IMG/VR virus record: IMGVR_UViG_3300047546_000629
Location: 1 to 32,972 of that record
Direction: 5' to 3' (one strand)
From: a virus
DNA length: 32,972 nt
The notes beneath the pieces are model-generated. The model was not told the DNA's origin. It did not search any database and saw only the letters and a list, made by a program, of their open reading frames with translations. Below are positions 12,083 to 32,344 of this stretch, piece after piece. Within the stretch, counting starts at the first letter, position 1. Each line of letters begins with the position of its first letter. Both the position numbers and the translations under genes were made by a program.

Positions 12083-13270
12083 TTACTCGACAAGTGCCCA
12101 GTTCTTGATGATGCTATGCACCTTGCTCTGAGTCATTTCCAAACCACACTCGGTGATGTAGTAATGAACTGAGCCGTCCACATCGGGAGCCTGCACGTCA
12201 CGCTTCAGATTGGTATCGCGACCTTTCATGTAGCGGTAGTTCAGGTAAGGCAGGTCGAGAATAATCATCGAACTCTCCATACCAGCGATCTGACGGAACA
12301 TCGGATGCAGATGCACCAACAGGTCACCAGCGAAGGTGGAGTAGCGAGTCATGCTCACGCCATAAGAACCTTGAACAGCGGTGGGCTGCCAGCGGTTCTT
12401 GCCAATCTGCTGGAGGTGCGCAATCACTTTTGCACCGCAGAAGGCAACCTTCTCTTTCGAGCCATACGCGAACAGAGTTTCGATCAGGGTGCGATCAAAC
12501 TCTTTCTCGGTGAACTTGCCAGCGGTTGCGCCAGCAGTCGAGGCATCGATAGTGGTAGCGGCAGAGATTTGCGACAACAGACCGCCAGTGTAGCGAGTTG
12601 GTTGTGCAGTGTTGCCGTTGACTTCAGCACGCTTGCCGAAGAACATCGAACGCTCAATGTCGCTCATGTGGAGCTTGAGAGCCTTGGTCAGCATCTCTTG
12701 CTCTTTAGAGCCAGTGCGCAGATAGGTGTTCTTCAAGGTGTTGGTGATGCTCACGCTGGTCTTGAAGATTTGCGTGTAGTTGTAATCCATAGTGGGATCA
12801 AACGACACGGCAGCGGGAGCGCCAGAACCCTCTTGTGCAGCGAAGCCAGCAACAGCGAGCGTGTCGCCTGCAACCATTGCAACACCAGAGCCGCCAATAC
12901 CGCGAGTAACGGTAATGGTGTTCGTGCCAGTGTTGACAGCAGAAGCAGTCATCAGTTCGCCAGTGCGGACGTTGACAAGGGTAGTGCCAGCCACGATGAA
13001 CGGCAATACGCCAGCGGTCGCGGAAGTCACAACGATGCTGGTATCAGACGTGGTCTGAGTAGCGTTCGTTTTGACGTAGCGGTCAGGCATCTCGTCGCGG
13101 AAGTGGTTGAACTTGGGGTCATCAGTCTCGCTGGAGCCAGCCATCGAGAGCAATGCGTTCAGGGGTGCGGTTCCGTTCGGCTCAAGGAGCGTGAACAGTT
13201 CGCGATAGTTGGTCGGGCGGAAGTCAGTGGTGAACTCGCCCGAACCACGAAGACCAGTAATAGCGGCCAT
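12083..13270 (-). CDS. Major capsid protein, SU10/DUF5309-like
   Basis: The start is the ATG at 13270, behind GGAGAAAATC; a TTG four codons earlier is unlikely. The protein is 395 aa. The N-terminal TGLRGSGEFTTDFRPTNYRELF, split here by its family features of an early Gly-rich arm and aromatic turn, is followed by a beta domain rich in Thr/Val/Gly (about 65-150), then a helical and beta core with FKTSVSITNTLK, KALKLHMSDIERSMFFGKR and a C-terminal YYITECGLEMTQSKVHSII. This order is that of the DUF5309/SU10-type major head proteins, which adopt the HK97 fold. It follows the scaffold gene and is enclosed by terminators on both sides, which would allow separate and strong expression. Confidence 0.88.
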   Translation of the reverse strand: MAAITGLRGSGEFTTDFRPTNYRELFTLLEPNGTAPLNALLSMAGSSETDDPKFNHFRDEMPDRYVKTNATQTTSDTSIVVTSATAGVLPFIVAGTTLVNVRTGELMTASAVNTGTNTITVTRGIGGSGVAMVAGDTLAVAGFAAQEGSGAPAAVSFDPTMDYNYTQIFKTSVSITNTLKNTYLRTGSKEQEMLTKALKLHMSDIERSMFFGKRAEVNGNTAQPTRYTGGLLSQISAATTIDASTAGATAGKFTEKEFDRTLIETLFAYGSKEKVAFCGAKVIAHLQQIGKNRWQPTAVQGSYGVSMTRYSTFAGDLLVHLHPMFRQIAGMESSMIILDLPYLNYRYMKGRDTNLKRDVQAPDVDGSVHYYITECGLEMTQSKVHSIIKNWALVE

Positions 13271-13459
13271 GATTTTCTCCAAAAAAAGTTCGGTTCAAAA
13301 AAAAGTTCTTTTGCCCTGTGAGCAAACTGGCTCGTGGACGTTTAGGCGACTTCCCTGGCGATGCTATGTAAGCGCGACATGCGGGCTTGCATGGCCTGTC
13401 TTGTTGCCATGACCCAAATTCTGTAGTTGTCTTGCGTTCATTTCGTCCTTCAAGACAGC
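13271..13459 (-). promoter_or_regulatory. Capsid gene leader with T-rich direct repeats
   Basis: Non-coding stretch between the scaffold terminator and the capsid start. Next to the ribosome binding site the transcript has two direct copies of GAACUUUUUUU (13291-13281 and 13308-13298), 17 bases apart. U-rich leaders can bind ribosomal protein S1 and raise translation. A promoter is expected here because a terminator precedes it, but I see no convincing -35/-10 pair. Two very short frames (22-25 codons) are present; I do not call them genes. Confidence 0.45.
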
Positions 13460-15127: not shown

Positions 15128-16525
15128 CTATGCTCCACAAGACTCTTGTTTCAACATAACGACTTTGGGTCTCTTCTTCATCCATGCTGCCTTACCCTGG
15201 TTGTGCATGATCGACGGATCGATGACTGAGACCTCTGTGCTGGATTCAAAACGAATTCCAGCTGGATTTTTAACCTTGACCAACACCATGTTGGTCGAGT
15301 GAAACAAACCAATGGCCAACAAGGCAAGGTTGTAAGCAAAGCTGTTGTCACATGCCTTCTCCCAAAGAGCGTCCTCAAGGAACATGCACGCCCCCTGGCA
15401 CAGCTGTAAGACTGGGCACTGCGGGCACTCCTTGCGGGTTGACCAGTGATGAACAGTATTGACTGACACGGCGTCCAAGTCGTCCATATTTCCCAACTTG
15501 TGGCGGGTCTCGCTGCTGGTGTTCTGGCATGTCAAGACATTGCCGCCCATGTCTACGGCCACGTTGTCTTGGCGATCCATCCCGCACTTCTGTCCCAAGA
15601 CATAGCTGGGCCTATGGTTGGTCACACTGGTGAGGAAGTCCTTGATTTTTCCTGCCAGAGACGGCATGGCGACACCCGTGATGCCCTCATAAAAGACCGT
15701 GTGCATCAGCATTGCGGCGTCCATCTCGTCTTGAAGACCGACGGAAACGGCGTTGTCGTCGTAGGCCAACAGGATTTCTTCCGTGGTCACGGGCACATCC
15801 TCTGGGGCCACGCCGAGATGATGGCCGATGTATTCCTTGACCTCCTTGATGGAGTAATGGCGACCAGTCAAGACACAGTTGAAGCCAATCTTCCCGCTTG
15901 GGTGCAGCTGATCGTAGGCGTATTTGACCCACGGCAGGATGTCTTTGTCTTTGAGCGGGTCTTGGCCTCGGTTCTCTTCGTAGCCAGGGCCGTCATGGCT
16001 GATGCCGACCTGAAACCCAAGCGAGACAAGCCAGTCCACCTTGTCTTTGTCGAACAGGCTGGCGTTGGTGATGATGTTGAACTCAGCCTTTGGGTAGGCT
16101 GCACGCACCTTCTCGGCCAGAGGCTTGAGGGTTTTCCAGTAGACAAACGGCTCGCCGCCCCAGAATTCGATGCGCTTGCCTTCGCCGTCGCCAAGGTTGA
16201 ACCACGTCTGAAACTTGTCAAAGAACGCGTCAACCTCCTTGGGGCTGCCATCGTAATCGTGCGGCTGCGCAGCCTGGTTGCAATAGGAGCAAGCGTAGTT
16301 GCACTTGAGGCCAAGCTGGATTTTGATGACCTTCGCATCACGCGACTTCTTCCCAGGCATGTCTGGCGACACGATGGTGGCAGCCTCCCAATTCATGTCT
16401 TGAGCAAACCTGAACTGATTCACTTGGAACTTCTCACCGTCGTCCCAATACATCTCGTTGAAGTGAGGCTCGTAATGAATGTGGCGGACTTGGCCTTCAG
16501 GGCCGACAAGTTCTAGTTCATACAT
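15128..16525 (-). CDS. Radical SAM/SPASM enzyme, anSME-like maturase
   Basis: The start is the ATG at 16525, overlapping the upstream stop by 8 bases; this gives 465 aa. The radical SAM cluster motif is C75-x3-C79-x2-C82, followed by GGEP at 123-126 (SAM amine contact) and a later GISHDGP at 174-180, as in anaerobic sulfatase-maturing and related peptide-modifying enzymes. The C-terminus has a complete SPASM pattern: C314-x13-G-x4-C333, then C367-x2-C370-x5-C376-x3-C380-x11-C392, which would hold two more Fe-S clusters. Such enzymes make radical changes to Cys, Ser or backbone positions in peptides and proteins (formylglycine, thioether bonds, epimers). The neighbouring Cys-rich Hint protein is the obvious candidate substrate. 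No small RiPP precursor, transporter or RRE domain is seen nearby. Confidence 0.9.
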   Translation of the reverse strand: MYELELVGPEGQVRHIHYEPHFNEMYWDDGEKFQVNQFRFAQDMNWEAATIVSPDMPGKKSRDAKVIKIQLGLKCNYACSYCNQAAQPHDYDGSPKEVDAFFDKFQTWFNLGDGEGKRIEFWGGEPFVYWKTLKPLAEKVRAAYPKAEFNIITNASLFDKDKVDWLVSLGFQVGISHDGPGYEENRGQDPLKDKDILPWVKYAYDQLHPSGKIGFNCVLTGRHYSIKEVKEYIGHHLGVAPEDVPVTTEEILLAYDDNAVSVGLQDEMDAAMLMHTVFYEGITGVAMPSLAGKIKDFLTSVTNHRPSYVLGQKCGMDRQDNVAVDMGGNVLTCQNTSSETRHKLGNMDDLDAVSVNTVHHWSTRKECPQCPVLQLCQGACMFLEDALWEKACDNSFAYNLALLAIGLFHSTNMVLVKVKNPAGIRFESSTEVSVIDPSIMHNQGKAAWMKKRPKVVMLKQESCGA

Positions 16526-17240
16526 AGTGTGTGGTGTAGAGAGTTTGGGAATCGTCACGCTGGCCAACAAACGAAGGTTGGCGGGCGCTACGGACAAATG
16601 GCAAATCGCCAAAGGCCATTCTATGTTCGTGCATCACGATGAATTCGCATGAAATCATCACGCGCTCACCGCCAGAAAAGAATGTTTCACTCTCATGCCA
16701 CACAGTAGCTGGGTGGCAATGCCACATCCCAGTTTCTGTTTGCAGTCGTTTGCTCTTGTTGTTGAACGGATATTGCTGCGCTGGGCGCGGGTCGATCACA
16801 ACAAAGCGGCCAGCCTCGTTGGTCTTGAAGTCTGGTTTCGCGCCGTCACCCATGTCAGCATAAAACGTGGAAACGAAATCGCAGCCGTGGTGGTAGTGCG
16901 GCCTGATACGCTGTCCGTAGTGATAGATGTTGGCAAACGCCCGCACCTTGACTGGCGTGTCCCAAATGAATGGGTCTTGGAATCCGCACCAAACATAGTC
17001 GCGGAATCTGGCGGCCACGATGTCTCTGAACTTGCACATAGTTTGATCCTCATTGAAGAGATCAAACATGTTGTAGTAGCCATTGCGCTCGTAGAAGTGG
17101 CCAGTTGGCGAGTGCAGCTTCTCAGCTTCTCTTGCCAACTCGCACAGTCGCGTTAGCTCTTCCTGGCTCAAGTCCAGGCGCTCAGACCACATTGGGGTCT
17201 CCCAATTGTGGGTCAAACACTCGTAAACGCTTTGCATCAC
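16518..17240 (-). CDS. 2OG-Fe(II) oxygenase-like protein (240 aa)
   Basis: ATG at 17240, overlapping the preceding stop by 4 bases. The region from about residue 100 to 200 fits a double-stranded beta-helix oxygenase of the TIGR02466-like, phage-common type: a His cluster RPHYHHGCDFVSTFYAD with H115, H117, H118 and D121 as candidate iron ligands, a FVVIDPR strand (146-152), and a distal WHESETFFSGGERVMIS with H182 as second iron His and R193 as the likely 2-oxoglutarate carboxylate contact. Such enzymes hydroxylate amino acid side chains or other substrates using oxygen and 2-oxoglutarate. It is coupled to the radical SAM gene, so both may act on the same protein. Assignment is by motif reading; the exact ligands are uncertain. 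Confidence 0.72.
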   Translation of the reverse strand: MMQSVYECLTHNWETPMWSERLDLSQEELTRLCELAREAEKLHSPTGHFYERNGYYNMFDLFNEDQTMCKFRDIVAARFRDYVWCGFQDPFIWDTPVKVRAFANIYHYGQRIRPHYHHGCDFVSTFYADMGDGAKPDFKTNEAGRFVVIDPRPAQQYPFNNKSKRLQTETGMWHCHPATVWHESETFFSGGERVMISCEFIVMHEHRMAFGDLPFVRSARQPSFVGQRDDSQTLYTTHYV

Positions 17241-18184
17241 GATACCGTGAAGTTTGCGTCTGCAAGACCAGTCATCAGTCGGAATCCGACTTTGACCTTG
17301 AATTGATCTCCAGTTTCTAAGCCAAGCGCCTTGACCTTGAACGACCCAGCGCCGTTTGTGATCGCCACGCGAGTCAACGGCAGGTATCCGCCAGTTGCCT
17401 CAAGGAACAGCTCACAATCTCTTGTCAACACTTCGTCCGTCTCAATGTTCACCACATTGACGGTGACGGTCGCAGTGCCGTCTGGGGCGATGGTCGCAGG
17501 ATGTTGCACAGTCACACCAGGTAACAGAATAGGCTCAACCAAGCAGGTGTAGTCAAGCGGCTCCCAGTCGGACAGATTGCTCGTGAAGCCAAGCATGGCG
17601 CTATGGCGCAGAACAATCGAGCATTTGGTGAAGTCGTCGCCAGCAAAAGGCTTGAACACGGTGACAATGGGTTGACCGTCCATGATGCTTGATGCGCGAT
17701 ATGAGATCGCCTTGCGGTTCATGTTCTCGACAGTCACGGTCATGGACGGGCGAGGATAGCCGTCGCGATCCATACCAATGACATAGATCAGGCAGTCACC
17801 GACTTCCCATCCGCCTTTGTTGGTGCGCTGTTGGTCGAATGTTCGATTCAAGAAAATGCGCGACGCGCCAATCTTTGCAAACACCTTCCCAGCGTGTTGA
17901 GGTGCAAGCGTGCCACCATCAACAATCAAGCGCTCACGGTCATAGCGCTCGATGTCGTGGGCATACATCGAAGTGTTGGTGTAGCCAGGGTTATCTTGAA
18001 CTTCAATGTCTGGGTTGTTGAACGCTTTGTTCAACGTCATCTCTCCAACCCACACACCATCAGACTCTAGGCGGCAGCGCTCATAAGAGTGGACGGTAAT
18101 GACTTCTGGTTGAACGTCGAGATGGTAGAAGATTGGATACTTCTCTCTCGGCATTGCATAGTGTTTGACGGGCATTTGGGCCAT
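17237..18184 (-). CDS. Virion-type protein with C-terminal Ig-like domain
   Basis: 315 aa, start in a one-base TAATG overlap with the Hint gene stop. Residues 1 to about 215 are mixed beta sequence without a recognised motif (landmarks VIYVIGMDRDGYPRPS-like strand near 140-155 and FKPFAGDDFTKCSIVLRHS near 190). From about 222 to the end the pattern of TVQHPATIAPDGTATVTVNV, a central TGGYLPLTRVAITNGAGSF and a final KVKVGFRLM strand fits an Ig-like beta-sandwich, as often found on phage surface proteins. It lies between the Hint protein and the two modifying enzymes and may be a virion surface partner or a second substrate. Function unknown. Confidence 0.65.
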   Translation of the reverse strand: MAQMPVKHYAMPREKYPIFYHLDVQPEVITVHSYERCRLESDGVWVGEMTLNKAFNNPDIEVQDNPGYTNTSMYAHDIERYDRERLIVDGGTLAPQHAGKVFAKIGASRIFLNRTFDQQRTNKGGWEVGDCLIYVIGMDRDGYPRPSMTVTVENMNRKAISYRASSIMDGQPIVTVFKPFAGDDFTKCSIVLRHSAMLGFTSNLSDWEPLDYTCLVEPILLPGVTVQHPATIAPDGTATVTVNVVNIETDEVLTRDCELFLEATGGYLPLTRVAITNGAGSFKVKALGLETGDQFKVKVGFRLMTGLADANFTVS

Positions 18185-19125
18185 TACTCGGCTCCTTTCT
18201 CAGTCATCGACTCCAAGACAACGCCGTTTGCGTGCCATGTCTTGTTGCCTCCAACATCAACCGTGTAGAGCGTCTCTTTGCCAGTCATCACAGAGTCGAT
18301 GAAGAACACGCGAGTCATTCGTCCATCGATCAAGATGGAGTCGCCGACATTAAGTTGTGCAAGACCTTCAACAGCTACGCTCGGCTCCTTGCCAGTGCGT
18401 TCTTTGTATTTCTCAGCAAACGCTTTGTAGCCATCAAGACTCACGGCCACCCAATTCTTGCCGTTGTAAACGAGGTGTTCGCCAGTAACTCTGATTTGAT
18501 TGTTGATGGTGTAGGTGACTTCATGTTCGCCAACATGGCACTCAACAACTCGAAGAATCTTGTTCTTCTTGTCATCAAGGCCAAGGACTACGTCGCCAGC
18601 TTTCAAGTCTTGAACATTGGATAGCGTTCCGTCACCGAGCTTGACTTTTGTTCCTTCAGGAACAGAGCATGTGCAATTACAAGCGCAGTTACAGTTGCAA
18701 TTCGTGTAGCAGTTCCATGATCCGCAGTTGCAGTTGCGCAAAGTGCGCTGATAGCGGTCAACCCCGTCACGCGTTTCGATCAAGCTGTATGAGCTGTAGA
18801 TGTATGACTGAGGCCAACCGAACGTGCAGTTGCCATACGATGCGCCAGACGCCCAGCTATACAAGTTGTTAGAACAGTTAGCGTTGCCAGCACCTTGCTG
18901 GCAATTGCCTCCAGGAACTCCACTGATGCCCCAAGTCCACCAGTTTCCATTGGGCATGTCCCAAAACACGTTGCCAGCGCAGTTGCCGTTTGGGATCGAG
19001 CCAGTGCAGTTTGCAACACGCACATCTTCATAGGTTGCGCGACGAGGACGGTTTCCCTGCTCCAACTCGTCCGCAACCCGAAACCCAAGACTGTCTTGGA
19101 TTACAGGGTTACGAATGATTGTCAT
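18184..19125 (-). CDS. Cys-rich protein with C-terminal Hint (hedgehog/intein) domain
   Basis: 313 aa, ATG at 19125 behind AAGGAG. Residues 1-152 are rich in Asn, Gly, Trp, Tyr and Cys (13 Cys before residue 153), ending in a tract where Cys alternates with Asn, Ala or Thr (132-153). C153 begins a Hint domain: CSVPEGTKV (block A, with C153 as the expected nucleophile), a DLKAGDVVLGLD turn (173-184), RVTGEHLVY (212-220, block B with T214 and H217), and YTVDVGGNKTWHANGVVLES (287-306, block F). The family's final His-Asn is replaced by Glu-Ser and no C-extein follows, so splicing is not expected, while N-terminal cleavage or ligation through a thioester at C153 remains possible, as in hedgehog proteins. 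Its downstream partners are coupled in one run. The biological role is unknown. Confidence 0.85.
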   Translation of the reverse strand: MTIIRNPVIQDSLGFRVADELEQGNRPRRATYEDVRVANCTGSIPNGNCAGNVFWDMPNGNWWTWGISGVPGGNCQQGAGNANCSNNLYSWASGASYGNCTFGWPQSYIYSSYSLIETRDGVDRYQRTLRNCNCGSWNCYTNCNCNCACNCTCSVPEGTKVKLGDGTLSNVQDLKAGDVVLGLDDKKNKILRVVECHVGEHEVTYTINNQIRVTGEHLVYNGKNWVAVSLDGYKAFAEKYKERTGKEPSVAVEGLAQLNVGDSILIDGRMTRVFFIDSVMTGKETLYTVDVGGNKTWHANGVVLESMTEKGAE

Positions 19126-19135
19126 CTATGACTCC

Positions 19136-19831
19136 TTACTCGTAGCTTGCGCCAAACAACGTGACTTCGATTTGGTTGCCATCAGTCAAGCCACCACTCA
19201 ATGCGCCGATCAGCACATCGCCAGCACCCAAAGTGATGTAGCGTCCAGGCGCTGCATCAAGAGCTGGCATCAAATCGTTGCGCAAGAAGTGAGTTGCTTG
19301 GTTGCTGCTGTTGATACCAGCGTTCGAGGGGACTTGCGGAGCGAACAGCTTGTAGCATTCGTAAATGATCGTGCCGTCAGGCAGCGTGTCGTTGGCGGTG
19401 AAGTTGCCAGTTGTCAGCAACTGACTGCCAGTCGCATTGTAAGAAGCGATGTTGTAGAAAGCTCCGTTACCCAAGGCGGCGGGAGAGTTGGAGCCAACAG
19501 CTGCAAGGCGCTTGATTGGGTATGCAATTAACAGGCGTGCTTTTGCTGGTTTGTCGGCAGTGCGCCAGTCGCCAACTGTGCGTTGCAGCGTGTTGCCAGA
19601 CAGGGTCACAGTGCCATAAGTTGCGGCAGCAGTAGTCCAGATGGGTTTGCCAATGTATAGGTGCATGTCAAACGTGGCGGCTTGGTTGTTCGACACGTTG
19701 ATTTGGTGGAAGCGCACGCCAGGAGAGTTGGCCGCAACCTGATACATGATGCGAGGGTTCGTGCCATCGACGTTTTGGAATTGGAAGCCAGCGGTGATGA
19801 GCTTTGAGTAGAAATTGGGTGTTTGTGCCAT
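19136..19831 (-). CDS. Virion-type protein of unknown function (231 aa)
   Basis: ATG at 19831, two bases after the 64-aa gene, ending 10 bases before the Hint gene. It is a soluble, beta-type protein rich in Asn, Ala, Thr and Gly, without Cys clusters, signal peptide or membrane helix. Composition and position after the long fibre suggest a surface or fibre-associated structural protein. I do not recognise a family. Confidence 0.65.
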   Translation of the reverse strand: MAQTPNFYSKLITAGFQFQNVDGTNPRIMYQVAANSPGVRFHQINVSNNQAATFDMHLYIGKPIWTTAAATYGTVTLSGNTLQRTVGDWRTADKPAKARLLIAYPIKRLAAVGSNSPAALGNGAFYNIASYNATGSQLLTTGNFTANDTLPDGTIIYECYKLFAPQVPSNAGINSSNQATHFLRNDLMPALDAAPGRYITLGAGDVLIGALSGGLTDGNQIEVTLFGASYE

Positions 19832-20038: not shown

Positions 20039-23000
20039 TCAATGCGCAATCAGGACAACTTCGTCGCCCGAATTGAGTCCTGGGGACGGGAATACCACAT
20101 TGGAACCTGACGTTGCGGTGTAGTCGTCCTGATCCAGTAACACTCCGTTCACGTTTACGTTGAGTCTCCCAGCTGTGTAAGTGCAGGCAAATGTCGTCTG
20201 GCCAGCGGTGGCGACGATCTTGGTTCTGCTGTAGGTCGGAGCGTAGGTCGTGAACAGCTGCCACCCAGTGCTGGTGTATGCGTAGAGCTTATCTTGCCCA
20301 GTGTGGAAGAAGACCTGGCCAATGACTGGCGAAGCTGGGAACGATGTCCCGCGATTGATCCTGGTGAGGAGGTCGTTGTATGTCGAGACGACAGTTGCCT
20401 CCTTTGCCACTACGTTTGCGTTCGAGTTGCTGGCCGAGTTGGCCATTGCCGACGCCGTGTTGGCAGAGTTGGATGCGCTGGTCTCGCTGGCCGCTGCACT
20501 TGTTGCACTTGCGATTGCCTGATCCCTGTATTGACGAATCAACTGCTCATCTGACAGAGCAAGCGGCTGGAAGACGGTGATGCCAATCTCGTCCCCAGCG
20601 GTCAGGCCGTTGTTGAACGTGATCGCGTTTGTGCCAGCCGTGAAGTCTTGCGTCAGCAAGTTCTCGATACCGTTGACCGAAACCGTCAGCATGGATGCCG
20701 AACTGAAATCCAGCGTCTGGCCGTAGGAGTCAACCCCAGAGAAGGCAGTCTGTCCCGCAGTCGCTACATAGCGGAAGCGCTTGATAAACCCTTTGTTGTA
20801 GGAGGCCGCTTCCTTCCACTCAGTCGGGGTGCGGATGTAAAGAGTCTGCGCCGCGCTGTTATACCAAAGCATGCCAGTCTGGGGACTGGCTGGCGCTGTA
20901 GCGGACGACACAAACGAGTTCTGAAGCGCGGTCAGGGCGTTGTTGGCATTGGTGTTCGCGGTGTTGGCTGCGGTCATCGCCGCAGATGCCGACGAAGCGC
21001 TCGATGTTGCGCTCGCCGCGCTCGCACTTGCCGACGTTGCCGCCGACGTTGCGGTCGTTGCCGCCGCGACAGCGGTGTCGCGGGCGTTGTAAATCTGAGT
21101 CTCTTCTGTAAGACCAAGCGGGCTGAACGACCAGACCTGCAATTGGTCTCCAGCGGAGGCCGCCTCTACCAATGTGATGGCGTTTGACGCGGCGGTGTAG
21201 TCCACGCCAAGCATGATCTGGCTTCCGTTGAGGAACACCTGAACCATGCCCTGACTGTTGAAAGACAGTGTCTTGGCGTTGTCGTCTGCCCCACTGAAGG
21301 TGGTTTGGCCAGAGGTCGCAGTGTATTTGTGGACGTTGATGAAGCCCTTGTTGTAGCTCGCGGCCTCCTTCCACTCGGTTCCAGCACGCAGGTAGAGCGT
21401 GCCAGTCGTGGTGTCGTGCCACAACATCCCGTTGGTCGGGCTGGACGGGGCTGACGCTTGGCTTACAAAGCGACCGTTGAATGTGGATAAGCTGCCAGCG
21501 GCGCTGGTGGCGCTGCCAGCGGCAGCAGTGGCTGAACTGGCGGCAGAACTGGCCGATGCAGCAGCCTGCGGCACATAGGTGTTTTGCACCACCTGAGCGT
21601 AGGTCGCGGCGGCCTGAGCCTGATCGCGAGCAGTGTAGATTTGCTGCTCTTCTGTCAGACCCATCGGGTAGTAGCTGATGATGACCACGCGATCATCGGC
21701 CGCACACGCATTGCCCAGTGTGATGGTTGGTGGCGTCAAGCTGACGGTGTATTCCTCGGTGGGAATCAGCATCACGCCATTGACCACAACACTCACCGTG
21801 TTGACGGTGCGAGCCTCTAGCGCCTGACTGTTGATGTCGTTGCCAGTAAACGCGGTCTGCCCAGCAGTTGCGACATATTGATACTGCTTGATGAAGCCCT
21901 GGTTGTAAGGAACAGCGTTGACCCACGCACCGCTCATGTAAATCTTGAGGATGCTGGTGTTCGGGTCATACCACATCTGACCAGACTGAGGGCTTGCTGG
22001 CGCTGTAGTTCCAACGTGGATCAAGCCAGACACGGTGTTGACTGCGGCAGCCGCATTGGTGGCGCTGGTTGCAGCAGAGGTCGCCGAGTTGGCTGCGTTC
22101 GTTGCACTTGTGGCTGCGTTGGTCGCGCTCGTTGCTGCGGCGCTGGCCGAGTTTGCGGCGTTTGTCGCCTGCGTGGTGGCGGCAGACGCCTGATTGCTTG
22201 ACGTGGTCGCAGAAGTCGCTGCGTTTGTCTCGCTTGTCGCGGCAGCAGTAGCGCTTGCGGCGGCGGCATTCTTGCTGGCCAATGCAGCTGCTGCGCTTGC
22301 GGCGCTGTTGGCCTCTGCGTTTCCAATGTTGGTGGCGCTTGTGGCCGCTGCGGTCGCGCTACTTGCTGCGGCAGATGCAGAGCTTGCCGCCGCAGTCTGG
22401 CTCGCGGCCGCTGCGGTCGCGGAGTTGGCAGCATTGTTTGCCGCTTGTGTTGCAGCGTAATTCGGACGCTCCCAAGTTGCCCCGTTGTAGAAGCGGATGT
22501 CTTGGGTCGTGCTGTTGTAATAGAGAGTGCCAGCAACGAGTGCGTTGCCGTCATTGTCCAGCGTCGGGTCTGCTGTCTTGGAGCCAAGGAAGCGGTCGTC
22601 GAAGTTGTCGAACAGGTTTTCGACGGCCGTCTTGGATGCCAAAGCGCTGGATGCGCTGGACGCTGCGCTGGTGGCAGAGCTTGCCGCGCTTGTTGCTGAA
22701 GCGGCGGCCTGGCTCACCTGATTGTTCAAGCTGTTGAGCGAGTTCTGCGCAGAGGTCGCACTGGTGGCGGCAGCAGTAGCACTGTTTGCCGCTTGCGTTG
22801 CGCTGTTGGCGCTGGCTGTGGCTGAGTTGGCGCTGTTGGTGGCGCTCGTCGCAGCACTTGTTGCCTGTGTGGTCGCGGTAGTTGCGCTTGTTGCAGCACC
22901 AGTTGCACTGTTGGCGGCATTGGTCGCGCTGGTCGCGGCGTCTTGGCTGTATTTCTTCGCCCCGTAACCCTGGCCAACAACGACCTCGGCGCTTGTCTTG

Positions 23001-23584
23001 GTTGCCCAGTCCTGGCTCAGCGTTGCGCTGGTGGCCGCTGCGGATTGGCTTGACGCGGCGGCGGTGGCCGACGCGGCAGCAGCAGTCTGACTTGCGGCAG
23101 CAGCCGCAGCAGAGGCTGAGCTGTTGGTGACTGCGGTATTGATCGCAGTGCCATCGACAATGATGCCCCACTTGGTTGCATCAAAAGTGCTGGTGCTGGT
23201 GTGAGCCTCTTTGGCGTAGTAGAAGCTGTTGTTGTATGTGATGAAGTCGCTTGCCGCGTATGCGGTGCTGGCAGCCCATGCTCCGCGCTGGCGGAAGATG
23301 TAGCTGCCTGTGTCGCGCCAGCCAGCATTGGGGTCTACATATAGACCGCTGCGGATTTGCAGCTTTTGATCTGGCTGAAGAATACGCAGTTGAATGAACG
23401 TCTGATTGATCGCGCCAGTGTTGTCAAACACCTGGTCGAGCAATTCGGGAATAGTGAGAACACCACGCTCGCAGGCTTCCAGGTAATCGTCAAGAATATG
23501 ACGACCAGTCTTTGCTGAATCAAAGACTAGCTGTTCGCCTACTGGCCTTGTGATGTCTGGGCCGCTATGCGTGTATTGAGTCAC
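20039..23584 (-). CDS. Long modular tail fibre (1181 aa)
   Basis: ATG at 23584, 3 bases after the preceding stop. Residues 1-145 form an N-terminal attachment region; 44-89 share a spaced motif with the second fibre (TI-x-ELL, LQ-x-R-x-G-x-Y, GW). Long Ala/Ser/Thr/Asn stretches at about 150-320 and 376-516, with smaller ones at 655-700, 838-890 and 1020-1070, have a 7-residue rhythm and probably make trimeric coiled-coil stalks. Four related beta modules lie at about 520-650, 705-835, 893-1020 and 1078-1181, each with an APASP...GMLWY-type turn, a YVATAGQTAF-type strand, a VNG turn and an AGDE-type end. There is no separate tip domain: the protein ends in the last module (LNSGDEVVLIAH). It would be a long flexible receptor-contact fibre. 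Confidence 0.85.
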   Translation of the reverse strand: MTQYTHSGPDITRPVGEQLVFDSAKTGRHILDDYLEACERGVLTIPELLDQVFDNTGAINQTFIQLRILQPDQKLQIRSGLYVDPNAGWRDTGSYIFRQRGAWAASTAYAASDFITYNNSFYYAKEAHTSTSTFDATKWGIIVDGTAINTAVTNSSASAAAAAASQTAAAASATAAASSQSAAATSATLSQDWATKTSAEVVVGQGYGAKKYSQDAATSATNAANSATGAATSATTATTQATSAATSATNSANSATASANSATQAANSATAAATSATSAQNSLNSLNNQVSQAAASATSAASSATSAASSASSALASKTAVENLFDNFDDRFLGSKTADPTLDNDGNALVAGTLYYNSTTQDIRFYNGATWERPNYAATQAANNAANSATAAAASQTAAASSASAAASSATAAATSATNIGNAEANSAASAAAALASKNAAAASATAAATSETNAATSATTSSNQASAATTQATNAANSASAAATSATNAATSATNAANSATSAATSATNAAAAVNTVSGLIHVGTTAPASPQSGQMWYDPNTSILKIYMSGAWVNAVPYNQGFIKQYQYVATAGQTAFTGNDINSQALEARTVNTVSVVVNGVMLIPTEEYTVSLTPPTITLGNACAADDRVVIISYYPMGLTEEQQIYTARDQAQAAATYAQVVQNTYVPQAAASASSAASSATAAAGSATSAAGSLSTFNGRFVSQASAPSSPTNGMLWHDTTTGTLYLRAGTEWKEAASYNKGFINVHKYTATSGQTTFSGADDNAKTLSFNSQGMVQVFLNGSQIMLGVDYTAASNAITLVEAASAGDQLQVWSFSPLGLTEETQIYNARDTAVAAATTATSAATSASASAASATSSASSASAAMTAANTANTNANNALTALQNSFVSSATAPASPQTGMLWYNSAAQTLYIRTPTEWKEAASYNKGFIKRFRYVATAGQTAFSGVDSYGQTLDFSSASMLTVSVNGIENLLTQDFTAGTNAITFNNGLTAGDEIGITVFQPLALSDEQLIRQYRDQAIASATSAAASETSASNSANTASAMANSASNSNANVVAKEATVVSTYNDLLTRINRGTSFPASPVIGQVFFHTGQDKLYAYTSTGWQLFTTYAPTYSRTKIVATAGQTTFACTYTAGRLNVNVNGVLLDQDDYTATSGSNVVFPSPGLNSGDEVVLIAH
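20042..22027 (-). repeat. Four tandem fibre beta modules
   Basis: Four related units of about 105-140 codons encode the beta modules of the long fibre (residues about 520-1181), separated by short Ala/Ser stalks. Each has the strand pattern Y-x-ATAGQT-x-F, a VNG turn and a GD-x-[VI] strand; the first three also end in a P-x-[GA]-L-[TS]-[ED]-E segment. The fourth is shortened and ends the protein. A single copy of the same strand is also in the second fibre (8204-9760). Confidence 0.75.
22037..23137 (-). repeat. Low-complexity Ala/Ser/Thr stalk coding region
   Basis: Codons for residues about 150-516 of the long fibre are dominated by Ala, Ser, Thr and Asn in a roughly seven-residue pattern (SAATSAT-like), interrupted at about 320-376 by a small globular piece with FYNGATW. 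The DNA is correspondingly GCN/AGC/ACC-repetitive, which invites recombination and length change. Opposite-strand frames here are shadows of this bias. Confidence 0.75.
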
Positions 23585-23881: not shown

Positions 23882-25777
23882 CTACGCAGCTTGCCGCATC
23901 GGGATCAGGTTGCCCTTCTCCACTTCACGGCTGAGTTGTTCTTGCGGCATCACGTTTGCGCCACGCATCTTTTCCATCAACGACAGTTGCTGGCTTGGCG
24001 TCATGCCCTGCTTGCGCTCTTCTTCGCTGATCTTGAACTGGTCAAGGTCAGACAAGCCCATTGCGCGGATTGCTTCTTCAACCATCTTGCCCGCCTTGTA
24101 TTCCATCTGTAGGCCAGATTGGTTGAGGATTTGCAGGATGTTCATCCACGTCTCTGGGCTGCGCGTAGGTTCTACTGGCAACGTGCCATCGACGATCAGG
24201 TAATCGATGTTGCCCTGCAAATCATTGACGTTGAAGTCGATGTAGCCATCTTTGACCACATCGGCCAACAAGCCAGGTGTGTCTGCCTTGTCCATGCGGA
24301 TTGCGCCGCTGTATTCAAGTGCATCTTGAATGTTTGAGAGCATCATGCGAACCAGCGGACGCATGGTGGTTGCAGACATCACGCGAGCCAACACACCGAG
24401 GCGTTGACTGCCCATCTGGCTCAGGCGTTGAATCTCAGTTGCTGTGCGCACGCCGTCAACTGTCGGCATGCCTTGCTGCGCATCGCTTGCTGCTGAGAGC
24501 CGCTGCTTCAACTCGTGCATTTGTGCGATGTCGTTCCAATGACCTTTGGTGACATCGGGCACGTTGGCAATGTAGACGCCATCCCCTGGCTTTGTGCCAG
24601 GGAGTGTGCGCACCACGCCCCACGGATTGCGGTCAATCAAATCTGGAATGGAGACCTGCGTTGGGTCTACGAAGATCAGATTCGATAGCGCGGCTTGGAC
24701 GTTGTCGATGCGACTGCGCAGCAGCCAAGTGGCGATGTCGTGCAGAGGCAGCAAGAGATCGTAGAGCGATTGGCTGAACGTCTTGTGCTTGTCGAAGAAC
24801 AGACCGCCCAACACGGTTGGGAATTGTCGGCCGTATGGATTGAGCTGGAAGCGCAGGCAGACTTGCTCGTCGATGATTGCAACGATCAACCAAATCTGAT
24901 CGATGCTCGGCACGCCGATCTCGTATCCAGACATGCGAATCCATGCCTCGTCCAAAACGCGAGCGCTGTCTAAGCTGAAGCGATAGTTGCCAGTGGACTC
25001 GTGCGGGTCTTGCGGGTTGATCGATAGACCCTTGCCCTCTTCGCGTGCCCACTCGTGCGCTTCCCACGAATGATTACGAGCAACCTTGCGGTGGCGACGC
25101 AGTGCTGGGTATTTCTGAAACTTCGGATACAGACCGCTTGCAAGAATCTGATTGGTGGACTGGTAGTCAACAAAGCAGATGTATTGCATTTTTTCCCAGT
25201 CACCCCAAGACACGCGTGGGTCTGGGAAGACTCGGCGCGGATCAAAGTTGATGATGTGATTGGTGTTGTCCTTCGGAGACCACACAATTTTTGTGGGCGC
25301 GAAGCCGTAGCGGATGCTGTCAAGTGTGAGCTGAGCAATGCGTGCTTCACCTGCCGTGCGACGCATTTGCTGATGCAAGAGTCGTTCGAGAATTGCTGAG
25401 ACCTTGCGGCTCTTGCGGTCAAGACCTTCAAGCTGGAACATGGGATTGCGCCCAGTCAGCGCAGCCATCATGTAAGTGAGGACGGTGTCGCTGATTGCGC
25501 GTGTGTCGGCAATGACAGCTTTTTCGCGGAACTTGGTTGCGTCTGGAGGAACCCACACATCATGTGCGCGGTCTGCCTCCTGCCAATGCTGATAGCGGCG
25601 GGAAATGCGTGAGTGCGACATCTTTAGGATGGCACGCACATAGTCAACGATGCGGTTCTCTTGCTCTTCACTGAGCAAGTCGCTGATGTCTTGATAGTTC
25701 ATCAGCGGCTCGATCAGGTTCGAGAGATCAACGACTACATCATTGGGTGTTGTGGATTCATTTTTATACCAGGACAT
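23882..25777 (-). CDS. Portal protein
   Basis: 631 aa, ATG at 25777, 60 bases after the large terminase stop. The first part has acidic helices (residues about 20-60) and the RRYQHWQEADRAHDVWVPPD segment near 61-80; the middle has QLTLDSIRYGFAPTKIVW and the FDPRRVFPDPRV loop typical of podovirus portals (about 148-190), and the end is helical with a GMPTVDGVRTATEIQRL region (about 435) and a Gln/Met-rich tail. Length, order after TerL and these landmarks fit the P22/SU10-type portal family. It would form the 12-fold ring at the head vertex, bind the terminase during packaging and the gp4-like adaptor later. The following scaffold gene is unusually distant (over 9 kb). Confidence 0.85.
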   Translation of the reverse strand: MSWYKNESTTPNDVVVDLSNLIEPLMNYQDISDLLSEEQENRIVDYVRAILKMSHSRISRRYQHWQEADRAHDVWVPPDATKFREKAVIADTRAISDTVLTYMMAALTGRNPMFQLEGLDRKSRKVSAILERLLHQQMRRTAGEARIAQLTLDSIRYGFAPTKIVWSPKDNTNHIINFDPRRVFPDPRVSWGDWEKMQYICFVDYQSTNQILASGLYPKFQKYPALRRHRKVARNHSWEAHEWAREEGKGLSINPQDPHESTGNYRFSLDSARVLDEAWIRMSGYEIGVPSIDQIWLIVAIIDEQVCLRFQLNPYGRQFPTVLGGLFFDKHKTFSQSLYDLLLPLHDIATWLLRSRIDNVQAALSNLIFVDPTQVSIPDLIDRNPWGVVRTLPGTKPGDGVYIANVPDVTKGHWNDIAQMHELKQRLSAASDAQQGMPTVDGVRTATEIQRLSQMGSQRLGVLARVMSATTMRPLVRMMLSNIQDALEYSGAIRMDKADTPGLLADVVKDGYIDFNVNDLQGNIDYLIVDGTLPVEPTRSPETWMNILQILNQSGLQMEYKAGKMVEEAIRAMGLSDLDQFKISEEERKQGMTPSQQLSLMEKMRGANVMPQEQLSREVEKGNLIPMRQAA

Positions 25778-25837: not shown

Positions 25838-27475
25838 CTATTCTCCCCACCCAGCAATTCCAGAAGAAAGTTTTTTGGAGTGGATGTTCTGTGCGCTCAT
25901 GGAGTCAAAGATTTTCCTGTTGAGCGACAGGCTGGCATCAAACGCTCCGTTCAGGGCGTCGTCGTTTGGCAAGACAACACGAGAGAGAATGTCCACCGCC
26001 ATGACCAGGGCATCAACCTGGTCGTCGTGCTTGCTGCTTGGGAACTGCTGCATCTCAGTCATAAAGTCGTCCAGCCACGGGGCAGTCTGCGGCAAATAGA
26101 CTCGCCCACCCTCAATGATCGGCGTGACAGAGTTGGCGCGGCTGACCTTGTCTCCAGGCGGCAGCTTGTAAGGAATGATGGCAATCCCAGACTCCATGCG
26201 CAGTTCTTGGATCAGAGACTGGCCGCTGGCCTTGTCTTCAACGTAGAGGCCACGCAGGCCACGACCGCGCCATTTGGTGTTGACCTGGGTCGAGATGCGC
26301 TTGAGTTCTGGGAAGTTGTATTTGCCACGGATGACATCGAGGATGTAGATGTCTCCTGTGTAAGACACACCAGCCACGAGAAGGACTGAGTAGTCGGCTG
26401 ACTCGGTTTTCTTGAAAGCCGTGTCGGACGTGATGATGAGCGAGTGAAAGCGCTCTGGCAGCTCGTCCCAGAAGCGCCACCATCCACTCTTGATGACGTT
26501 ACCGCCAGCAACGTAGGGCGACTGCATATAAAGAGAGGCGAACTCTCTTGGGTTCATGCGCTCGATACGCTCCAGCTCTTCTAGTGGGAAGCGCTCTGGC
26601 CACAGGGCGGTGGTGGTCTCAATGTTCTTGAAGCGGCGACTCTCGGTGATCGTCGAGAGCATGAATGAGGGTGGTAGGTATTCGGGGTCGTCCTCTGGCA
26701 GTTCCTTGCGGCTGACCTTGCGGACGTGTGTCTTGCGGGCCTCAAAGTTGACGTGCATCCACTCGCCACGCTTCCATTCCTCCGTCTCCATGATGCGGCC
26801 AGCCAGGTCGTCGGGATGCCAGCGCGTGAGGATCACGATCTCAAGCGCGGGCTGGCGATCTCTGTCTGGTTGCTTACGGGTGAGCAGCGCAGAGACGTAG
26901 TAAGACCAAACCGTGTTGCGGACGGTGGGAGACTCCGCTTCCTGACGGGCTTTGATTGGGTCGTCCACGATCAGCAGGTTTGCGCCACGACCCGTCGTCG
27001 TGCCGCCGAGGCCAACGCCGTAATAGACACCGCCGACGGTTGTCTTCCAGACGTCTACGGCGCGTGACTCCTCGGATAGTGTGAACTCTGGGAACGACTG
27101 CTTGATGACGGAACTGCGCGTGTATTCGCGCACGTTGCGGCCGAATGTCTTGGCCAGTTCGGCGTTGTATGAAACAGACATGATCTCGCGGTAGGCTTTG
27201 CGAGCGATGTAGTAGGAGGGAAAGAGTTCCGTGGCAAATGTCGATTTACCGTGACGCGGCGGCATGTTGACCAGGATGCGGCGCACCTTCTTGCCGTGGT
27301 CGTTGTAAAGCTCGTCGCGCTCAGCGCGATCCAGAATCTCGATCAGCTCGCGCTGGAAGTCTGGGATCACAATCCCAGGGCGCATGGCTTTGACGTAGCC
27401 CATGAAACTCTCGCTTGCCTCGCGGACTGTCAGGAGGCGCTGGGCAACTTCCGCCAAGTCATATTCATTGCTCAT
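25838..27475 (-). CDS. Terminase large subunit
   Basis: 545 aa; ATG at 27475 overlaps the TerS stop by 11 bases and has an AAGGAG site. ATPase part: Walker A PPRHGKST at 72-79, Walker B LLIVDD at 167-172, and a coupling-type TRWHPDD at 216-222. Nuclease part: D350 in TSDTAFK, ED at 412-413 in YVEDKAS, and HDDQVDA at 482-488, giving the acidic residues of the RNase H-like fold. All expected motifs are intact. It packages DNA into the prohead through the portal and cuts concatemers. The packaging strategy cannot be told from this window. Confidence 0.95.
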   Translation of the reverse strand: MSNEYDLAEVAQRLLTVREASESFMGYVKAMRPGIVIPDFQRELIEILDRAERDELYNDHGKKVRRILVNMPPRHGKSTFATELFPSYYIARKAYREIMSVSYNAELAKTFGRNVREYTRSSVIKQSFPEFTLSEESRAVDVWKTTVGGVYYGVGLGGTTTGRGANLLIVDDPIKARQEAESPTVRNTVWSYYVSALLTRKQPDRDRQPALEIVILTRWHPDDLAGRIMETEEWKRGEWMHVNFEARKTHVRKVSRKELPEDDPEYLPPSFMLSTITESRRFKNIETTTALWPERFPLEELERIERMNPREFASLYMQSPYVAGGNVIKSGWWRFWDELPERFHSLIITSDTAFKKTESADYSVLLVAGVSYTGDIYILDVIRGKYNFPELKRISTQVNTKWRGRGLRGLYVEDKASGQSLIQELRMESGIAIIPYKLPPGDKVSRANSVTPIIEGGRVYLPQTAPWLDDFMTEMQQFPSSKHDDQVDALVMAVDILSRVVLPNDDALNGAFDASLSLNRKIFDSMSAQNIHSKKLSSGIAGWGE

Positions 27476-30360: not shown

Positions 30361-30442
30361 CACATCGTGTCACCGATGTGATACTTCGTGTATCATAGAC
30401 GTGACATTATGTGTTCCACATGAAACATACGAAAGGAACCAC
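30361..30442 (+). promoter_or_regulatory. Regulatory leader of the CobS-like gene
   Basis: Two adjacent inverted repeats: CACATCG/CGATGTG (30361-30367, 30374-30380) and TGATAC/GTATCA (30379-30384, 30390-30395). A TGTATCAT stretch (30389-30396) could be an extended -10 element, with a weak -35 candidate upstream. The ribosome site AAAGGAA lies before the ATG at 30443. There is no T-tract, so operator or promoter is more likely than terminator. Confidence 0.45.
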
Positions 30443-32344
30443 ATGACACGACGCTTATCAGCGTTGCGCTGGAAGGTATGGCTCAACATGGAATCCGCAT
30501 CCGAGCGACGCAAGTCGATGCGTGCGTGGCTCCATGAGATGAGCGCAGACGAGGACTTGGAGGCGCTCGCCGTCAAATACCTCGTCCAACAAGGCACGTC
30601 AGGTCGCAAGACATGGCGTGGCCTGATCGACTCGATGACCATGAGTGACTTGGTCTCGTGTCTTTGCATGGTCGGCTCACTCAAGCCGTTGCTCACACAC
30701 GCAACCGATACCACGCAAACCATCGCTTCATCCATCGGCATCGCTGACTCGCAGGGCGCAATCAACCTTGAGTTGCGCTACATGCCATCACACAAAGTCG
30801 ATGACCTCGTCATTTCGGAGATCACAAACATGAACATGGAACAAACATTCAAGGATGACATCCTGCCTGTCGCTCAGGCGATGTTCTCTGGCGCGTCAGA
30901 CTCATTCGGCAACGACGTATCCACGCCAGTCAATGCCTGTCTCGTTGCGGCCAAGGCGCACAGCTTCATGGATGTCTCATCGCGTGATGCGATGTTGGCT
31001 TACATCGAACTCAACGCAATCGCAGGCCAAATCGACACCCACTTTGCAGGCGTGACATCAGCGTCTGCCCGTGCCGTTGCCGAGGCAATGGGCGAAACAG
31101 ATTCATCAACCATCACTACGGAGGAACCCGCACACATGTCCGCAACTACCGCCACCGCACCCACCATCACCATCGACCCCAACCTGAGCAAAGCCATCGA
31201 CGCATTGCTTGGCCCCGCAACTGGGGGCAAGTTCGCCACGCTCTCAGACATGGTGCGTCAGATGGGCGAGGCAACCACCGCAGCTGCCGATGCGCAGCGC
31301 AAGGCCACCGAGCTTGCCTCTCGCTTGGCCAAGACACCGAGCGTTCCGATGCCGACCACCATCCCAGGTGACGGCAAGCTACCCAACGGCAAGATCGAGA
31401 TGGTGCGTGCCATCGATGTCTTCAGCGGGCCTCGTGGCAAGAAAGCCAAGGCGCTTGAGTTCGAGATTCCCAAGTTCGTATGGGATGCACCTCACCCGCT
31501 TGTGCCTACGATTGACCCCAACTACAAGTTCCGTCTCAAGCACTTGCTCAAGGTGCTGTGGGCGTTGAGCAACCGCCAGAACATCTGGCTTTACGGTCAC
31601 TCTGGCACGGGCAAGACCACGCTGATCGAACAGATCGCCGCCTATCTGCAATGGCCTGTCATGCGCATCAACTTGGACTCAGGCATTGAGCGTTCTGACA
31701 TCGTCGGTCACACGGGTCTTGTCTCCGAGGCAGGCACTACCGTATCCAAGTTCATCGAGGGTATCGCTCCCAAGGCGATGGCGCAGGGTGCAATCCTGCT
31801 CGTTGACGAGTGCGACTACGGCCGACCCGACGTGATGTATGCGATTCAGCGCGTCTTGGAACACAAGGGTTTGCTCTTGACTGAAGACAACGCTCGTGTC
31901 GTGACGCCTCACCCCTACTTCCGCATCGTTGCCACCGCCAACACGCGTGGTCAGGGCGATGAGTTCGGTGTCTACCCTGGCGCACGGGTGCAGTCGATTG
32001 CGTTCCGTAACCGCTTCAACGTGTGGGTTGAGGTCGAGTATCTCGACGAGGCTGAAGAGCAACAGCTTCTGCTCGACAACTACCCGACCATCGACAAGAA
32101 CGATGCAGGCTTGTTCGTCAAGCTCGCCAACGAGATTCGCACGGCGTTCAAGGGTGGCGAGATCATGGAGACTGCCTCGCCTCGTGACCTGCTTGCGTTA
32201 GGCCACATGTTCGTGGACTTCCACTCTCTCATCGGTGACCGCAAGGCCGCCGTCGAGCTTGCGATTGACACCGTCATCGTGAGCAAGGTGACGGGCGACG
32301 CGCAAGCCAAGGTGCGTGAGATTTACAAACGTGTCTTCGCATAA
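30443..32344 (+). CDS. CobS-like AAA+ ATPase with long N-terminal extension
   Basis: 633 aa from ATG 30443 (AAAGGAA upstream). The C-terminal 400 residues are a MoxR/CobS-type AAA+ ATPase: Walker A GHSGTGKTT at 385-393, a SDIVGHTGL region at about 418-426, Walker B ILLVDE at 451-456, ATANT sensor 1 at 497-501, and an FRNRF arginine-finger-type motif at 521-525. CobS proper is the ATPase of cobaltochelatase; phage homologues usually have no cobalamin pathway and the substrate is unknown. Residues 1 to about 230 are an extension with no recognised domain. Two internal Met codons have ribosome-like sites (30830 and 31136); the second would give a 402-aa product of usual phage CobS length. It is paired with the CobT-like gene downstream. 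Confidence 0.88.
   Translation: MTRRLSALRWKVWLNMESASERRKSMRAWLHEMSADEDLEALAVKYLVQQGTSGRKTWRGLIDSMTMSDLVSCLCMVGSLKPLLTHATDTTQTIASSIGIADSQGAINLELRYMPSHKVDDLVISEITNMNMEQTFKDDILPVAQAMFSGASDSFGNDVSTPVNACLVAAKAHSFMDVSSRDAMLAYIELNAIAGQIDTHFAGVTSASARAVAEAMGETDSSTITTEEPAHMSATTATAPTITIDPNLSKAIDALLGPATGGKFATLSDMVRQMGEATTAAADAQRKATELASRLAKTPSVPMPTTIPGDGKLPNGKIEMVRAIDVFSGPRGKKAKALEFEIPKFVWDAPHPLVPTIDPNYKFRLKHLLKVLWALSNRQNIWLYGHSGTGKTTLIEQIAAYLQWPVMRINLDSGIERSDIVGHTGLVSEAGTTVSKFIEGIAPKAMAQGAILLVDECDYGRPDVMYAIQRVLEHKGLLLTEDNARVVTPHPYFRIVATANTRGQGDEFGVYPGARVQSIAFRNRFNVWVEVEYLDEAEEQQLLLDNYPTIDKNDAGLFVKLANEIRTAFKGGEIMETASPRDLLALGHMFVDFHSLIGDRKAAVELAIDTVIVSKVTGDAQAKVREIYKRVFA

Follow-up and report, generated by a model that had tools for sequence, protein, structure and literature searches.

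A C-terminal cysteine ladder on phage fibre-type proteins and the radical SAM/SPASM enzyme encoded beside it

What would a phage do with a radical SAM/SPASM enzyme, a 2OG-Fe(II) oxygenase and an Ig-like protein encoded in one run with a cysteine-rich protein that carries a Hint domain? The comparisons reported here suggest that the cassette probably matures a structural protein of the phage, with the SPASM enzyme modifying a ladder of alternating cysteines and the Hint domain, where there is one, cutting itself off. The matured protein would most likely be the tip of a tail fibre or spike.

A four-gene cassette among structural genes

The window, meaning the whole 32,972-base IMG/VR virus record that was analysed, encodes the cassette on its minus strand. 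The proposed substrate, a 313-aa NC-ladder protein with a C-terminal Hint domain (18184..19125; identified from its ORF, relatives and a structural model), is followed by an Ig-like protein of 315 aa (17237..18184; relatives, model and fold match), a 2OG-Fe(II) oxygenase of 240 aa (16518..17240) and the radical SAM/SPASM enzyme (phrog_1802, 15128..16525; family matches). The first two genes overlap by 1 base, and the Ig-like and oxygenase genes by 4. The ORF of the radical SAM gene begins with a TTG (16612) and relatives align from Met30, so the start was set at the ATG at 16525, which gives an 8-base overlap with the oxygenase gene. The gene order and the overlaps of 1, 4 and 8 bases in the preliminary description were thus confirmed, as were the four families it had named, through profile scores and fold matches.

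The cassette sits inside phage structural genes, all on the same strand. On one side, beyond a 231-aa protein directly upstream with no family match (19136..19831), lie a 1181-aa Ala/Ser/Thr-rich protein with tail-fibre matches (20039..23584; phrog_38058 tail fiber, 6.6e-56), a portal or head-tail adaptor protein (23882..25777; phrog_332, phrog_1216) and the terminase large subunit (25838..27475; phrog_38, 1.2e-109); on the other side lies the major head protein (12083..13282; phrog_1328, 2.2e-35). This context supports the structural, fibre-type setting suggested earlier, and because of it and of the fibre modules described below we infer that the ladder protein is incorporated into the virion. 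Outside the cassette, a 647-aa ATPase-like protein (30401-32344, plus strand) matches phrog_249 'porphyrin biosynthesis' (2.7e-61).

A cysteine ladder and its enzyme partner

The common element of this system is not the Hint domain, which only 11 of 119 ladder proteins possess (the window's included) and which was rejected as the core on that ground, but a C-terminal (Asn/Asp/Ala)-Cys ladder on a phage fibre-type protein. In the window it reads NCNCNCACNCTC (residues 142-153; 18667..18702, minus strand), its last cysteine being residue 153, and the ladder pattern gives two overlapping matches against none expected. Ladders comprise about 3-11 alternating units, and the residue in front of cysteine, in 57 distinct ladders, is most often Asn (211), Ala (64) or Asp (49). 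A DNA repeat or microsatellite was ruled out, since both codons of Cys and of Asn are used within the ladder at about the same rates as elsewhere. In 107 of the 119 proteins no more than 8 residues separate the end of the ladder from the stop codon; L133, which has an Asp/Gly-rich end, is the sole one that is neither stop-proximal nor Hint-bearing. Both arrangements can be seen in the 138-aa Hint-free protein of one viral contig, which ends CNCDCACACDCACACDCG just upstream of the enzyme, and in the ladder protein of Achromobacter phage JWF, where NCNCDCNCNCSC is followed by a Hint domain.

A profile built from four of the enzymes retrieved 80 viral and 79 bacterial-genome loci, and those with at least 3.5 kb of upstream DNA were scored for an ORF encoding C[NDAQ]C[NDAQ]C within 4 kb upstream. 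Such an ORF was found in 109 of 125 loci, at a density (123 in 539 kb near the enzyme against 13 in 4403 kb of the rest of the same loci) about 77 times background; gene calls outside the window were mechanical, and some of these counts may err by a few loci. With the loci dereplicated at 70% identity, a ladder accompanies 32 of 38 clusters, and in 2 of the other 6 it is present and was missed by the distance limit or the gene call. In the reciprocal direction, DNA that could encode NCNCNCNC was sought in IMG/VR, with the enzyme not used as a criterion. Among the matches listed, 40 C-terminal ladder ORFs have at least 2.5 kb of downstream sequence, and the enzyme lies within 4 kb of 39 of them, the single exception having just 2.7 kb downstream; counted by distinct C-termini among the same matches, the enzyme accompanies 28 of 29. 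A further 18 of the listed pattern matches, mostly short or non-genic frames and one of them with the enzyme nearby, were set aside.

The co-conservation on which the preliminary description staked its reading is therefore seen in many relatives, with a narrower unit than had been drawn: the radical SAM/SPASM enzyme and the Cys-rich protein stay together, while the Hint domain is optional and the 2OG or Ig-like gene can be absent. A two-way association across many unrelated carriers makes action of the enzyme on the ladder the best explanation, and the Cys-rich protein, one of the two targets first suggested, its likely substrate. The ladder was not found near the enzyme in a few relatives, namely those of Variovorax and Bacteriovorax (L146, L147, L149, L139 and L142) and one of Phaeospirillum; the enzyme family may have other substrates in the first two. 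In a Polynucleobacter locus (L161:7541-11215), possibly a decaying copy, the radical SAM ORF is shortened to 191 aa and the ladder is irregular (NCNCDRNCGC).

The arrangement resembles a RiPP system, in which a ribosomal precursor is encoded beside its modifying enzyme, as the ladder ORF lies near the enzyme in both directions of search. At or near the C-terminus, the ladder would work like a RiPP core peptide. A separate leader with a short core is not seen, and most ladders end long proteins of varied make-up. The earlier statement that the locus has no RiPP precursor must be qualified accordingly: the ladder itself resembles a core peptide, and what stands is that it lies at the C-terminal end of a virion-type protein and not in a small peptide.

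The ladder carriers form 14 clusters, which show no relationship to one another at the threshold applied. Some carriers contain collagen repeats, and collagen or Peptidase_S74 fibre modules adjoin or join some of them; in the Rhodobacterales and L025 a small gene of its own encodes the ladder, close to a fibre gene whose product ends in Peptidase_S74, and in L115, as in L025, S74 fibre genes adjoin the separate ladder genes. A maturase next to a Cys-rich precursor is also the usual RiPP layout, and a few carriers are short (67-138 aa), as would suit a phage moron gene for a secreted, bacteriocin-like RiPP. Most ladders, however, are the C-termini of fibre-type proteins of 200-700 aa among structural genes, which makes a secreted product highly improbable. 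Transporter genes were not noticed. Large-phage-like contigs hold up to four radical SAM genes; L169, L175, L208 and L232 encode ladder proteins of 67-79 aa, ending for example CNCNCNCNCTRGIL, and L169 and L208 have three or four radical SAM family matches in tandem.

The radical SAM/SPASM enzyme and its proposed ladder chemistry

The enzyme contains the CX3CX2C cluster motif (C104-X3-C108-X2-C111) and a complete SPASM motif, CX9-15GX4C ... CX2CX5CX3C ... C (C343, G357, C362, C396, C399, C405, C409 and C421), and four relatives preserve the cluster motif and all seven SPASM cysteines without change. The SPASM model TIGR04085 gives 36.2 bits (cut-off 27). Assignment to a curated maturase family was rejected, since the enzyme falls far below the cut-off of each one compared; the model of PapB-type ranthipeptide maturases, for instance, gives 58.9 bits for the window and 80.3 for L004 against a cut-off of 340. 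Achromobacter phages JWF and 2-1 encode an enzyme about 39-40% identical to that of the window, again beside a ladder protein, and the database entry for the JWF homologue names it 'anaerobic sulfatase-maturating enzyme'. The radical SAM enzymes of Campylobacter phages (PMC2853527) were considered as the same system and set aside, with a weak partial match and no CXCXC ORF in the region examined.

SPASM enzymes modify Cys-rich peptides and some full-size proteins, and their Cys-rich substrates usually end up with thioethers. It is for this one reason that we favour thioether cross-links, from the ladder cysteines to neighbouring residues, as the most likely product of the enzyme encoded just downstream. 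Against this, the CX3D spacing of PapB cannot occur in a strict NCNC ladder. The enzyme could instead make formylglycine from Cys, the reaction of anaerobic sulfatase maturases, epimerise every second residue in the manner of proteusin epimerases, or form C-C links. The models of sulfatase, nif11 and cyclophane maturases all match it at similarly weak levels, and solved sulfatase maturases are among its best profile matches; none of these family matches reaches its curated cut-off, however, and such chemistry is put forward tentatively, as less likely than thioethers.

A reading without covalent modification was also weighed, in which the ladder would run along the axis of a trimeric fibre tip as a metal-binding zipper and the radical SAM enzyme would serve elsewhere or help with metal loading. 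The tip of T4 gp37 has His-x-His iron sites, the alternation would put all the cysteines on one face of a strand, and fibre modules do occur in ladder carriers. Plain metal binding, however, needs neither a near-obligate radical SAM partner (39 of 40 among the matches listed) nor the second enzyme that appears repeatedly, and we consider a zipper of this kind decidedly unlikely.

Modification by the SPASM enzyme, the preferred reading, has partial precedents. The PapB/ranthipeptide, SCIFF, CcpM, geopeptide and nif11-type maturases share the superfamily, the full SPASM motif and a Cys-rich substrate encoded adjacent, whereas here the substrate would be the C-terminal NC ladder of a phage structural-type protein that has no separate leader peptide. 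Anaerobic sulfatase maturases and QhpD-type enzymes are SPASM enzymes that act on full-size proteins, with the difference that here neither a sulfatase nor an amine dehydrogenase subunit was noticed in the vicinity, and the partner is the ladder protein. A search of the open literature found no description of the pair of ladder and radical SAM enzyme. The logic of enzyme and precursor is familiar from RiPPs; apparently new are its application to fibre-type proteins of phages, the ladder, and the Hint variant.

If this reading is correct, phages would finish a structural protein, probably the part that contacts the host, with the chemistry of peptide natural products; this would be a new kind of virion maturation and would place a RiPP-like structure on the virus particle. 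It would also offer a new source of radical SAM enzymes that work on the ends of large proteins, and a function for many phage and prophage proteins whose present annotation goes no further than 'radical SAM' or 'hypothetical'. Ladder-bearing phages are many, and infect bacteria of water and soil. For the more specific proposal, that the fibre tip in several unrelated phage groups is a Cys ladder cross-linked by a phage radical SAM enzyme and that in some lineages a Hint cap removes itself, we judge the case to be evenly poised.

The Hint domain and the other genes of the cassette

The Hint domain of the window spans residues 154-309 (18199..18666, minus strand), as delimited by alignment, the confident part of the model and the fold match. 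Residues ~150-311 of the model adopt a Hint fold, with Z 19.6 and rmsd 2.0 over 140 residues against the bacterial-intein-like 6y75 and Z 15.3 against Hedgehog 1at0; the match at the sequence level is weak, and the model outside the Hint domain is of low confidence. A single-sequence search of IMG/VR with the Hint protein returned no relative, and the relatives came through the enzyme profile. The phage domain shares with bacterial intein-like and Hedgehog Hint domains the fold and the catalytic features of a cleaving Hint, namely a position-1 nucleophile (Ser or Cys) and the His of a TxxH block, which is TGEH with His217 in the window and whose His is invariant in the 11 Hint proteins. It differs from them in following an NC ladder, in its lack of a C-terminal His-Asn and in the Ser found at position 1 in the window and L029, where the nine others have Cys. 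The cleavage at an N-terminal Cys first described thus does not apply to the window, in which alignment with relatives puts Ser154 at that position.

The domain ends HANGVVLES..., and a C-terminal His-Asn plus nucleophile is absent from that place in all 11 aligned proteins; an intein was therefore rejected, and release is likelier than splicing. Of the two fates first offered for the Cys-rich protein, release or attachment by the Hint domain, the former is retained, and the latter is neither backed nor contradicted by the data. In the window and ten relatives, the Hint domain would cleave itself off through its position-1 residue, with no splicing.

In 11 of 11 Hint proteins the domain starts 0-2 residues past the last ladder cysteine. 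On a tree of the enzymes, which has long branches and some unsure placements, the distribution of Hint requires six changes, of which well supported branches demand at least four, and the nearest relatives of the window (L005 and L006) are without Hint. The domain would accordingly have been gained or lost about six times, and at least four. Its repeated placement at the exact point where relatives end argues for self-removal that would expose the same terminus, leaving a mature protein with the ladder at its end, as in the Hint-free relatives. The Hint domain could also ligate the ladder C-terminus to a nucleophile such as an amine, a neighbouring Cys or a small alcohol; Hedgehog-type Hint domains, which the window's resembles in fold (Z 15.3), use an alcohol as acceptor for an acyl group. 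Hint-free relatives, however, simply end in the ladder (107 of 119), so that no general need for a ligated partner is apparent, and ligation seems unlikely. Self-cleavage, the favoured course, has a parallel in the Peptidase_S74 fibre chaperones, which are likewise self-removing C-terminal domains on fibre proteins; here the chemistry would be that of Hint, and a chaperone role found no support. If the proposal holds, a Hint domain has repeatedly been placed at one exact site, and its role there is directly testable.

The usual gene order is ladder protein, Ig-like protein, 2OG oxygenase or second radical SAM enzyme, and radical SAM/SPASM enzyme. With neighbour families defined as single-linkage clusters, which makes the counts approximate, members of the Ig-like family occur in 93 of 118 ladder loci and in 83 immediately follow the ladder gene; a 2OG-cluster gene occurs in 72, being absent from many, and two radical SAM-cluster genes in 14. 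The Ig-like protein of the window (model pLDDT 84) has an intimin/invasin-type Ig-like fold at residues 221-315, with Z 11.1 to intimin 1f00 and Z 11.3 to the phage Chi neck chain 8vhx_H, and is probably a fibre partner or cap, or an assembly factor.

The 2OG oxygenase matches PF13759 (29.1 bits against a cut-off of 27) and phrog_81. Its presumed metal site comprises His115-x-His117 and His182; both outer histidines are invariant in 18 relatives, and the middle position is His in the window and Asp or Glu in about six others. This enzyme, or the second radical SAM enzyme, probably adds a further modification, for example Asn/Asp hydroxylation. The 240-aa middle protein of JWF and 2-1 was considered as a 2OG oxygenase; it resembles one in length alone and has no family match. 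In L005, L006, L009, L012, L016, L017, L021, L028, L043 and L053, the position between Ig-like gene and main enzyme is occupied by a second, shorter radical SAM enzyme (~294-362 aa) instead of the oxygenase. In L035, L038 and some 17 further loci, a conserved gene of 61-77 aa (c9) directly precedes the radical SAM gene. That it is a split-off N-terminal part of the enzyme was rejected, given no profile match, and it is a possible substrate-recognition partner.
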